In this document: one piece after another, positions 36,725-39,257 of the stretch
How positions within the stretch are numbered: the stretch's first letter is position 1
How the letters are laid out: each line of letters opens with the position of its first letter
NCBI RefSeq assembly: GCF_009928685.1
Contig: NZ_WWEO01000043.1
Coordinates: forward strand, 372,001-436,000
Direction of reading: 5' to 3'
Source: Mucilaginibacter agri
GTDB lineage: Bacteria > Bacteroidota > Bacteroidia > Sphingobacteriales > Sphingobacteriaceae
DNA: 64,000 bases
Notes under the pieces: generated by a model
Databases searched by the model: none
Seen by the model: only the letters and a program-made list of their open reading frames with translations
Told to the model about the DNA's origin: nothing
Made by a program: the position numbers and the translations under genes

Positions 36725-36763
36725 ACAAATAAAGGCTGCAGAGTAATCGCAGCCTTTATTTGT
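36725..36763 (+). terminator. Rho-independent terminator
   Basis: A perfect 15-bp stem: ACAAATAAAGGCTGC (36725-36739) with its complement at 36749-36763. Confidence 0.9.
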
Positions 36764-36811: not shown

Positions 36812-37582
36812 TTGCATTTTCCGGTAGATATCACCATAGGTAAGGCACACATTCCGGTACACTTTGTTTGCGAGACTTTGGCCTATGCAATTGGCTATCG
36901 TTATTATACCTATCTGCGTAGGCGAAGTCACGATTCTATTAGTGATAACAGCCGTATGGTTATTTTTGTGGGGGCTGCATTGGGAGGTTTTTTAGGCTCG
37001 CATATTTTAGGCGTATTAGAAAAGCCAGATATACTTAGCCAGATGGATTGGGTGTATTTTATGGGTAACACTACCATTGTAGGCGGTTTGTTAGGAGGAT
37101 TGATCGGGGTAGAATTGGTGAAGAAGCTTATCGGCGTTACAAAATCGTCTGGCGATATTATGGTTTATCCGCTCATATTAGCCATGATAATTGGGCGAAC
37201 AGGTTGCTTTTTAGCAGGTTTGCAAGACGGTACTTATGGCGTTGCCACATCTCTACCCTGGGGTGTAGATTTTGGCGACGGCATATATCGACATCCTACT
37301 AATTTATACGAAATACTATTTTGGCTCTTATTGTGGCTTATACTATTAAATACAGAACGGCGGCATCAATTTGCAGATGGATATAGGTTTAAGCTGCTTA
37401 TGATCAGCTACCTGTTGTTCCGCTTTGCAGATGAGTTTATAAAGCCCGATTATTTTTTCAATTTTGGGTTGTCATCTATTCAATTGGCCTGTATTGCCGG
37501 AATTTTGTACTATTATAAAGTATTTACCTATCCTTCAAAAATAATCACAACCCATGCCCGAACGTCCGTACATTTATTATGA
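36812..37582 (+). CDS. Lgt-like membrane protein with altered active-site residues
   Basis: A 256-aa polytopic membrane protein of the prolipoprotein diacylglyceryl transferase family (PF01790). Family landmarks are MHFPVDITIG at the start, VGGLLGGLIG (90-99), IGRTGCFLAG (127-136), and FRFADEFIKPD (203-213). Aligned by eye to E. coli Lgt, Arg143, Gly154, Arg239 and Glu243 are retained (Arg129, Gly140, Arg204, Glu208). His103, Asn146 and Glu151 are replaced by Val90, Cys132 and Leu137. It is therefore unlikely to be the housekeeping Lgt. The start is a TTG, chosen because it gives the family N-terminus. It overlaps the radical SAM gene by 29 bp, so the two are translationally linked; a lipid-related role is inferred. 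Confidence 0.82.
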   Translation: MHFPVDITIGKAHIPVHFVCETLAYAIGYRYYTYLRRRSHDSISDNSRMVIFVGAALGGFLGSHILGVLEKPDILSQMDWVYFMGNTTIVGGLLGGLIGVELVKKLIGVTKSSGDIMVYPLILAMIIGRTGCFLAGLQDGTYGVATSLPWGVDFGDGIYRHPTNLYEILFWLLLWLILLNTERRHQFADGYRFKLLMISYLLFRFADEFIKPDYFFNFGLSSIQLACIAGILYYYKVFTYPSKIITTHARTSVHLL

Positions 37583-38951
37583 TTTTACAATAAGCATTTG
37601 CTCAACTTGTTTAAGACGGGTTGATGCCAAGATTGTATTTGAAGATGGCAAAGTATATATGCTTAAAACCTGCAGGTTACACGGTTTCGAAAAGGTGCTT
37701 ATCGCCACAGATATCGAATATTATAAAAACTGCCGTAACTATGCCAAGCGCAGCGAAATGCCGTTGAAGTTTAATAAAGAAACGCATTATGGTTGCCCTT
37801 ACGATTGTGGGCTTTGCCGCGATCATGAGCAACACTCTTGTTTAACCGTAATAGAAGTTACCGATCGTTGTAATCTGGCATGCCCCACCTGTTACGCAAT
37901 GTCTTCACCCCATTACGGACGGCATAGAACATTAGAGGAGATTGAGCAAATGCTGGATGTAATTGTAGCCAACGAAGGTGAACCCGACGTAGTGCAAATA
38001 AGCGGCGGCGAACCAACAGTGCATCCCCAATTTTTTGAAATACTCGATATCGCCAAACGCAAGCCCATTAAGCACCTAATGCTAAATACTAATGGCATAC
38101 GTATAGCTAAAGACGAAGCGTTTGTAAAGCGGCTTGCATCTTACATGCCCGATTTTGAAATTTATCTTCAGTTTGATTCGTTTAAAAAAGAAGCTCTCGA
38201 ACAATTGAGGGGCGAAGATCTGCGTGAGGTAAGAATAAAAGCAATTGAAAACCTTAATAAGTATAATTTATCTACTACACTGGTAGTTACCCTCCAAAAA
38301 GGTCTTAATACAGACGAGATAGGGAAGATTATAGAATACGGGCTAAAGCAGCGTTGCGTTAGAGGTGTCACCTTGCAGCCAACGCAACAGGCAGGCCGCC
38401 TCGAAAATTTTAACCCAGAGACCGACCGCTACACTATGACGGAAGTGCGTAGCGCTATTTTAGAGCAAACCAATATTTTTACGCCCGAAGATCTGCTTCC
38501 GGTTCCTTGTAATCCGGATGCGCTGGTAATGGGATACGCTCTAAAAATAGGCAGCAAGGTTTTCCCGCTTACCCGGATGATAGATCCTAACGATCTGTTG
38601 GATAATTCACGAAATACCATTGTGTATGAACAGGATGAAACGTTGAAAATGCATTTACTGCACATGTTTAGTACTGGTAACTCCGTTGATGTTGCCAAAG
38701 AGCATCTGCACTCTATTATGTGCTGTTTGCCCGAAATTGATGCACCTGGCTTAAGCTATGACAATTTATTCAGGGTGATTATCATGAACTTTATTGATGC
38801 CCAAAACTTTGACGTACGGGCTATTAAGAAGTCGTGCGTGCATATCGTAAATAAAGACATGAGCATAATCCCATTTGAAACCATGAATATGTTTTACAGG
38901 GATGATAAAGCTGAATATTTGGAAATGCTAAGAAATGAGATTTCTATATGA
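37554..38951 (+). CDS. Radical SAM enzyme related to the tetraether lipid synthase family (COG1964)
   Basis: A 465-aa radical SAM protein. The N-terminal rubredoxin-like region has Cys16-x2-Cys19, Cys40 and His43. A Cys cluster follows at 81, 85, 88 and 96 (GCPYDCGLC). The SAM-binding [4Fe-4S] motif is CNLACPTC (Cys106, Cys110, Cys113), and the SAM-contact motif is ISGGEP (149-154). The C-terminus has further Cys residues (319, 390, 391, 428) and a family-like KKSCVHIVNKDMSIIPF. This arrangement is that of MJ0619-like proteins, one of which joins lipid tails in archaea. Whether this bacterial member couples lipid chains or does other C-C chemistry is unknown. It lies between an Lgt-like gene and a small membrane protein gene, overlapping both. 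Confidence 0.85.
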   Translation: MPERPYIYYDFTISICSTCLRRVDAKIVFEDGKVYMLKTCRLHGFEKVLIATDIEYYKNCRNYAKRSEMPLKFNKETHYGCPYDCGLCRDHEQHSCLTVIEVTDRCNLACPTCYAMSSPHYGRHRTLEEIEQMLDVIVANEGEPDVVQISGGEPTVHPQFFEILDIAKRKPIKHLMLNTNGIRIAKDEAFVKRLASYMPDFEIYLQFDSFKKEALEQLRGEDLREVRIKAIENLNKYNLSTTLVVTLQKGLNTDEIGKIIEYGLKQRCVRGVTLQPTQQAGRLENFNPETDRYTMTEVRSAILEQTNIFTPEDLLPVPCNPDALVMGYALKIGSKVFPLTRMIDPNDLLDNSRNTIVYEQDETLKMHLLHMFSTGNSVDVAKEHLHSIMCCLPEIDAPGLSYDNLFRVIIMNFIDAQNFDVRAIKKSCVHIVNKDMSIIPFETMNMFYRDDKAEYLEMLRNEISI

Positions 38952-39208
38952 GTGAACAGGAAAAATATAAAAAGCCATATAGCGAAGTAACCATATTAGG
39001 GGTTAACCTTGCAATATTTGCGTTGTACACCATATTGGGTGTATTGGGAAAGGAAGATGCACTTATCGCTTCTTTTTTTGCGGCGGTTATTCATTTTGTG
39101 ATATGTACAATTATGGCGATTGTAGCACGCAGATGGGTTTGGTTTTTAGCTGGGGTGCTGATATTGATTATTGGTTTCGGAACTTGCGTAAACACTTTAA
39201 AAATCTAA
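38948..39208 (+). CDS. Small membrane protein, third gene of the radical SAM operon
   Basis: An 86-aa protein with a polar N-terminus (MSEQEKYKKPYSEV) and three hydrophobic helices (about 16-34, 40-60, 64-82), the last interrupted by GFGTCVN. No family is recognised. Its ATG overlaps the stop of the radical SAM gene by 4 bp (ATGA type), so it is translationally coupled to it. Its constant position should be checked in relatives; it may anchor the enzyme at the membrane. A perfect palindrome follows and separates it from the convergent sulfurtransferase gene. Confidence 0.75.
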   Translation: MSEQEKYKKPYSEVTILGVNLAIFALYTILGVLGKEDALIASFFAAVIHFVICTIMAIVARRWVWFLAGVLILIIGFGTCVNTLKI

Positions 39209-39215
39209 TAAATTA

Positions 39216-39257
39216 ATACCCTTAATAGTAAATTGATCAATTTACTATTAAGGGTAT
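39216..39257. repeat. Perfect 42-bp palindrome between convergent genes
   Basis: Both 21-base halves are exact reverse complements with no spacer; the left half begins ATACCCTTAATAGT. It occupies most of the 60-bp gap between the small membrane protein (+) and the sulfurtransferase (-). It lacks a GC-rich core or T-run, but could act as a bidirectional terminator. Confidence 0.75.

Follow-up and report, generated by a model that had tools for sequence, protein, structure and literature searches.

Several described systems lie close to the locus reported here. In E. coli Lgt (PF01790; 5AZB/5AZC), roles have been described for residues R143, E202, Y235 and R239 (PMC4728403, PMC8689077), and His103 is essential and has been proposed to be catalytic; the H103Y variant is nonfunctional (PMC4728403). 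The radical SAM enzyme Tes, or GDGT-MAS (MJ0619), joins the tails of two lipids, both of which its solved structure binds (7TOL/7TOM; PMC9433317), and bacterial Tes homologues without known function have been remarked on by Zeng et al. (PMC8941075) and Lloyd et al. (PMC9433317). Two further systems combine a small peptide or a Cys tag with lipidation. In the MYXO-CTERM/myxosortase system, a Cys lies near a C-terminal transmembrane (TM) helix, and its authors think that this Cys is lipidated, possibly by Lgt (PMC11980579). In the DAG-RiPPs of Bacteroidota, a small modified peptide or protein is joined to lipoprotein-type lipidation by means of an N-terminal signal peptide, the housekeeping Lgt and an MNIO enzyme (PMC12636315).

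We analysed a window of 64,000 nucleotides from Mucilaginibacter agri, which contains a cassette of three genes on the plus strand. The first gene (36812..37582, +) begins with a TTG start and encodes an integral membrane LGT paralogue of 256 aa, assigned by Pfam LGT, alignments, fold match and tree. The second (37554..38951, +) encodes a Tes/TrsS-like radical SAM protein of 465 aa, and the third (38948..39208, +) a small membrane protein of 86 aa with three predicted TM helices, which belongs to a positionally conserved family and is the proposed substrate. An ORF check of the window confirmed overlaps of 29 bp between the Lgt-like and radical SAM genes and of 4 bp between the radical SAM and small genes, exactly as claimed by an earlier sequence-only reading of this DNA.

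The cassette is flanked by a gene with a weak CarboxypepD_reg match on one side and a convergent rhodanese gene on the other. A terminator-like hairpin, identified by pattern match only, lies upstream (36725..36763, no strand assigned), and a perfect 21-bp inverted repeat, a likely terminator, lies in the interval between the small gene and the rhodanese gene (39216..39257, no strand assigned). Both are likely cassette boundaries, suggesting that the cassette is probably a separate unit. Near the cassette, many Mucilaginibacter loci carry one or two Cys-rich CarboxypepD_reg proteins (N-terminus ...GRYCQSCCKTVTDFTG...; such as L011:4630-5256 and L017:3678-5058). These upstream genes were rejected as a core part, as were the TPR-like family 38, which lies downstream, and the DUF4395/ICMT genes of L122/L123, because each is present in some loci only. 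A defence system was rejected, the PADLOC match being that of a generic radical SAM core to viperins only, and so was a phage or viral origin, with no match among phages or in IMG/VR.

The linkage exceeds chance: it is conserved among relatives, which comprised 80 loci from Sphingobacteriales, Chitinophagales, Flavobacteriales, Cytophagales and Saprospirales. In 78 of the 79 assessable relatives, the radical SAM gene has the Lgt-like gene upstream of it, and the two genes overlap in 59 of the 74 that were measured. First searches of 296 Bacteroidota genomes returned strong radical SAM matches in 24 and Lgt-like matches in 25, with 24 shared. Two weak radical SAM matches, in G096 and G066, appeared at first to lack an Lgt-like gene; in G096, the radical SAM gene proved to adjoin an Lgt-like gene of divergent sequence and a gene for a Cys-tagged small protein, which brings the total for the pair to 25/296 genomes, or about 8%; of the four sampled genomes that belong to the same genus, only two are among them. 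The radical SAM genes of G066 and G340 stand nearer to true Tes, and no Lgt-like gene adjoins them. All three cassette genes are also present where they are dispersed over contigs: on three contigs in G034, and in G272 with the Lgt-like gene on its own contig and the small gene staying with the radical SAM gene. A search for the small protein in 15 genomes without a complete cassette (G017 included; G034 counted as complete) gave two weak matches and no clear one, a soft negative, since the profile detects the most divergent small proteins poorly; one of the two matches runs through stop codons.

Three-component conservation, gene order and near-perfect co-occurrence thus bear out the earlier suggestion that the products act together, and it is well supported and very probable that the Lgt-like protein, the radical SAM protein and the small protein form one functional unit. 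Pairwise distances of the Lgt-like and radical SAM proteins correlate (r = 0.93), and both enzymes of the Pedobacter copy L078 are closest to those of Chitinophagaceae, as if the cassette moves whole. G017 carries an Lgt-like gene of this group (L126:4653-5498) with neither the radical SAM gene nor the small Cys gene, which suggests an orphan or decaying copy.

The small membrane protein was given no role in the sequence-only reading. In our analysis it carries the best clue, a near-universal, lipobox-like Cys at the C-terminus that looks like a substrate site. The window protein, which is the only copy in its genome according to a genome search, has predicted helices at 13-33, 36-60 and 63-85, with Cys80 (TGC codon at 39185..39187, +) near the end of the third. 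A fold search with it returned no match. Its last TM segment, RRWVWFLAGVLILIIGFGTC (39128..39187, +), is the conserved core of the family and consists of a positive loop, a hydrophobic helix and a lipobox-like end. Small ORFs were gathered by their position downstream of the radical SAM gene and not by motif. They often form tandem arrays 3' of the radical SAM gene, the largest with about five members. With a strict filter, 77/80 loci encode a small TM protein with a C-terminal Cys after the radical SAM gene; the three misses are two contig ends and L053, in which the Cys is present and the filter failed on one Asn. A Cys was found in 112/128 C-terminal-TM ORFs downstream of the radical SAM gene versus 17/107 control ORFs from elsewhere in the same loci.

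An alignment was made of 43 small proteins; its rows were hand-picked, and a few Cys-less downstream ORFs were left out, among them gene 2 of L079/L080 and the soluble-protein gene of L053/L060/L070. Identity per column averages 23%, and no column is invariant apart from Met1 and Cys80, the latter being the proposed modification site; G76, four residues before Cys80, is nearly invariant. Among 84 non-redundant small proteins chosen by the C-terminal-Cys filter, position -4 is G (75/84), -3 is F/L, -2 is S/G and -1 is mostly T (47). The usual end is therefore G-[FL]-[SG]-[T/S/I/V]-C, which reads GFGTC in the window protein. The lipobox [LV][ASTVI][GAS]C does not match the small protein, and the -3 F/L and -2 S/G fit it loosely. 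In the same 84 proteins, position -1 is mostly T, I or V, with Gly/Ala/Ser in only about one in seven; the end is therefore a non-canonical lipobox, and cleavage by LspA is unlikely. At least one K/R directly precedes the last helix in 83/84. By the positive-inside rule, this positive loop would place the Cys at the outer face, so that the Cys would stand at the outer end of the last TM helix. A lipoprotein signal peptide is laid out in this way, though not at the C-terminus. The chain ends in His in 18 of the 84 proteins (L003-L082), well beyond chance expectation.

The Lgt-like protein belongs to the Lgt family (Pfam LGT, E 7e-22, 78 bits versus a cut-off of 24.9). It falls far under the equivalog cut-offs for functional Lgt, scoring 33 versus 118.9 bits for TIGR00544 and 60 versus 334 bits for NF000778. 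Comparison of its predicted structure (pLDDT 89), a check proposed earlier, gave E. coli Lgt 5azb as the single confident PDB fold match (E 4e-7, TM 0.55). According to the alignment, E. coli R143 corresponds to R129, Y201/E202 to Y166/E167, Y235 to Y200 and R239 to R204; E243 and the RHP..LYE stretch are kept as well, and the headgroup-pocket residues R129, Y200 and R204 are invariant across 22 relatives. The alignment also places V at H103, C (C132) at N146 and no Glu at 151, and H and E at Y26/Y30. The position of H103 is hydrophobic in the whole group (V/I/L/M), and the group has invariant polar residues of its own, including H17, E21, E70, E101 and D115. The motif residue at -1 of the small protein correlates with Lgt-like residue 103 (M with I, V with T), a correlation that is confounded by kinship. 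In the tree, the radical-SAM-linked Lgt proteins, those of mycobacteria and Bacteroidota on one side, stand apart from housekeeping Lgt with support of 100/98, unlinked paralogues being thinly sampled.

The substitutions at H103, N146 and E151, which the sequence-only reading had taken as a sign of a different activity, are real features of the alignment and not errors. We rejected the conclusion drawn from them, because the housekeeping Lgt of the window genome likewise lacks His103 (Tyr), Asn146 (Cys) and Glu151, reading LTFYGGL and GRVGCQMSGDGDWG versus MSFHGGL and GRLGNFINGELWG in E. coli. Their loss is therefore no argument for a new substrate. That housekeeping gene (C18:605808-606545) is the second Lgt whose presence the earlier reading had wished to confirm, and the only one in the genome besides the Lgt-like gene; at least one further LGT gene was found in 25/25 checked genomes that carry the Lgt-like gene. 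Tyr at His103 together with Cys at Asn146 is seen in the housekeeping Lgt here (L001:1459-2628) and in several other Bacteroidota. In the alignments, the Lgt-like group is distinguished by keeping the equivalents of R143, E202, Y235 and R239 together with a hydrophobic position 103. In sum, the Lgt-like protein resembles Lgt in fold, family score and these residues, and differs from it in position 103, its separate tree branch and its linkage to a radical SAM gene and to C-terminal-Cys proteins.

The radical SAM protein matches Tes (7tol) over residues 12-320 and at the C-terminus (E 9e-61 with a single sequence, 5e-78 with a profile), and its Cys layout agrees with the earlier placement in the Tes/MJ0619 superfamily. 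It has a rubredoxin-type site (C16-x2-C19-x20-C40-x2-H43), ligands of an N-terminal auxiliary cluster (C81/C85/C88 plus a His; C96) and the CX3CX2C core C106NLAC110PTC113, all of which are features of Tes (ligands per PMC9433317), and its C-terminal domain is homologous to that of Tes. Its C-terminal Cys set differs (C319, C390, C391 and C428): one Cys of the Tes-type CC pair is kept, PFC has become PFE, with Glu442 at a Tes Cys position, and other Cys residues are gained. Unlike Tes, this bacterial protein has an Lgt-like partner.

Assignment as genuine Tes was rejected at a score of 266 versus the 450-bit cut-off of NF045702, and assignment as genuine TrsS, the top-scoring NCBIfam family, at 309 versus the 490-bit cut-off of the TrsS radical SAM (seleno)protein model NF045646. 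TrsS is not known to have a Cys-tagged small protein, an Lgt partner or an assigned function. Judging from these scores and motifs, the protein is best called a member of a Tes-like subfamily without assigned reaction. Two Bacteroidota genomes carry radical SAM genes nearer true Tes, with a CC...PFC C-terminus and no Lgt-like neighbour (L124:4364-5821 and L161:3846-5324); these are candidates for the synthesis of bacterial membrane-spanning lipids.

Divergent versions of the cassette occur in other lineages. In three genomes whose lineage we infer to be Kapabacteria-like (G121, G156 and G384), radical SAM and Lgt-like genes are present, and beside the Lgt gene lies one for a small protein with FGAC or FGSC at its end. 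In both Kapabacteria-like genomes inspected gene by gene, DUF4395 lies beside the Lgt-like gene, and G156 also has an ICMT-family methyltransferase; between the radical SAM and Lgt-like genes, L122:3986-7588 and L123:2936-6442 contain DUF4395, and L123 a gene of the isoprenylcysteine carboxyl methyltransferase family. On a Mycobacterium avium plasmid, on an M. branderi plasmid and in Nonomuraea gerenzanensis, a divergent Lgt-like gene is accompanied by genes for one or two small proteins with SAGICTGLNP-like tails and by a radical SAM gene whose product is about 31-33% identical to that of the window. The tails in these cassettes (L145:3126-6446, L147:3256-6449 and L146:3090-6467, from Mycobacterium plasmids and Nonomuraea) resemble the pattern (S/T)AG(I/Y)CTG(L/I)NP. 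The cassette is thus patchy in Bacteroidota, is also found in some actinobacteria and is not confined to Bacteroidota. The earlier suggestion of a system undescribed in Bacteroidota holds in that the neighbourhood search found the triad across this phylum and no description of it was found, but not as regards its confinement. Our search of the literature, subscription papers being outside its scope, returned nothing relevant on a linkage of Lgt-like, radical SAM and small-protein genes, and an earlier description may exist.

The reading that we prefer, at roughly even confidence, is a dedicated modification cassette in which the Lgt-like enzyme would lipidate the Cys of the small protein and the radical SAM enzyme would alter the lipid or the conjugate. 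The small membrane protein would be the substrate, a role proposed from conservation and linkage, and its Cys is the probable target, to judge from its near-invariance. Its last TM helix would run from a positive cytoplasmic loop to the lipobox-like end at the outer membrane face. There the Lgt-like enzyme, which keeps the pocket for the phosphatidylglycerol headgroup, would probably move a diacylglyceryl or related group onto the Cys; whether the product is a lipid thioether is an evenly balanced matter. For the Tes-like radical SAM enzyme, the probable substrate is either the lipid donor or the product after lipidation, an order of steps that is our proposal; a coupling of lipid tails by this enzyme, by analogy with Tes, is doubtful. 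The lipid role itself we infer from the families, the residues and the predicted topology, whereas the sequence-only reading had inferred it from families and linkage. Several points speak against the preferred reading: the proposed catalytic His103 is replaced by a hydrophobic residue in the Lgt-like protein, the lipobox is non-canonical with mostly T/I/V at -1, and the cytosolic active site of the radical SAM enzyme and the outward Cys are predicted to lie on opposite sides of the membrane. Therefore, the radical SAM enzyme would hardly reach the Cys of the small protein itself.

The outward position predicted for the Cys also weighs on the reading in which the small protein is a RiPP-like, membrane-embedded precursor that undergoes modification by the radical SAM enzyme, while the Lgt-like protein acts on a different group or serves as a scaffold for lipid binding or docking. 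We consider this unlikely, although the tandem, fast-diverging small genes with their constant C-terminal motif adjoin the radical SAM gene, a divergent N-terminal part followed by a constant C-terminal one is typical of a precursor plus recognition signal, the small gene of G272 lies with the radical SAM gene and away from the Lgt-like gene, and the residue at the H103 position is hydrophobic. Strict conservation of the R143, Y235 and R239 equivalents is unlike a scaffold, and in the Kapabacteria-like and mycobacterial loci the small gene adjoins the Lgt-like gene. A system in which an unusual membrane lipid is made or flipped by the radical SAM and Lgt-like proteins, with the small proteins as accessories and the Cys as a structural residue or ligand, seems rather improbable. 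The radical SAM protein is related to tetraether synthase over both domains, and the patchy presence is as with speciality lipids; yet the protein falls short of the curated Tes cut-off (266 versus 450 bits), the Tes-type C-terminal Cys (CC and PFC) are partly replaced, and a single invariant Cys in otherwise unalignable small proteins would be left unexplained.

It is very unlikely that the Cys, often with a C-terminal His, forms a metal or redox site, such that the cassette builds a membrane metallo-protein or feeds electrons to the radical SAM enzyme: this enzyme needs several Fe-S centres and the terminal His recurs in 18/84 small proteins, but the His is not general, being absent from the flavobacterial, Kapabacteria-like and mycobacterial examples, and this reading leaves no role for an Lgt fold that retains its lipid-pocket residues. 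Ordinary lipoprotein handling, in which processing of the last TM helix by the housekeeping Lgt and LspA would set free a lipopeptide of 4-19 residues, is extremely improbable, because the -1 residue is mostly not Gly/Ala/Ser and a dedicated Lgt-like protein would not be needed, yet co-occurs almost perfectly, despite the signal-peptide-like layout of the helix, a housekeeping Lgt in every genome tested and the precedent of RiPPs that use the general pathway (PMC12636315).

MYXO-CTERM and the DAG-RiPPs are the nearest concepts in the literature searched, and both differ from the dedicated modification cassette that we favour. The MYXO-CTERM tag, an invariant Cys before the TM helix and an Arg-rich tail, has the inverted topology; in the small proteins, the positive charge precedes the helix and the Cys ends it. 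Moreover, the substrates of MYXO-CTERM are large and number in the dozens, and that system has a CPBP protease, whereas the proposed substrates here are small and the cassette has a dedicated Lgt paralogue and a radical SAM enzyme. The DAG-RiPPs have neither an Lgt paralogue nor a radical SAM enzyme.

With low confidence, we suggest that the cassette represents a novel class of post-translational modification, present in two or more phyla, in which a dedicated Lgt paralogue would act with a Tes-like radical SAM enzyme to build a lipid-protein conjugate, possibly with radical-coupled tails, on the C-terminal Cys of tandem small membrane proteins. The locus defines a testable substrate for an orphan Tes-like radical SAM group whose bacterial members have no assigned reaction (PMC8941075, PMC9433317), and a substrate candidate for Lgt paralogues whose usual annotation is that of an ordinary lipoprotein enzyme. 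If the proposal is true, a C-terminal form of bacterial protein lipidation would be added, and lipid radical chemistry could join protein modification. Even with other chemistry, this three-component system over Bacteroidota, with divergent counterparts in Actinomycetota, would be a new family to name.
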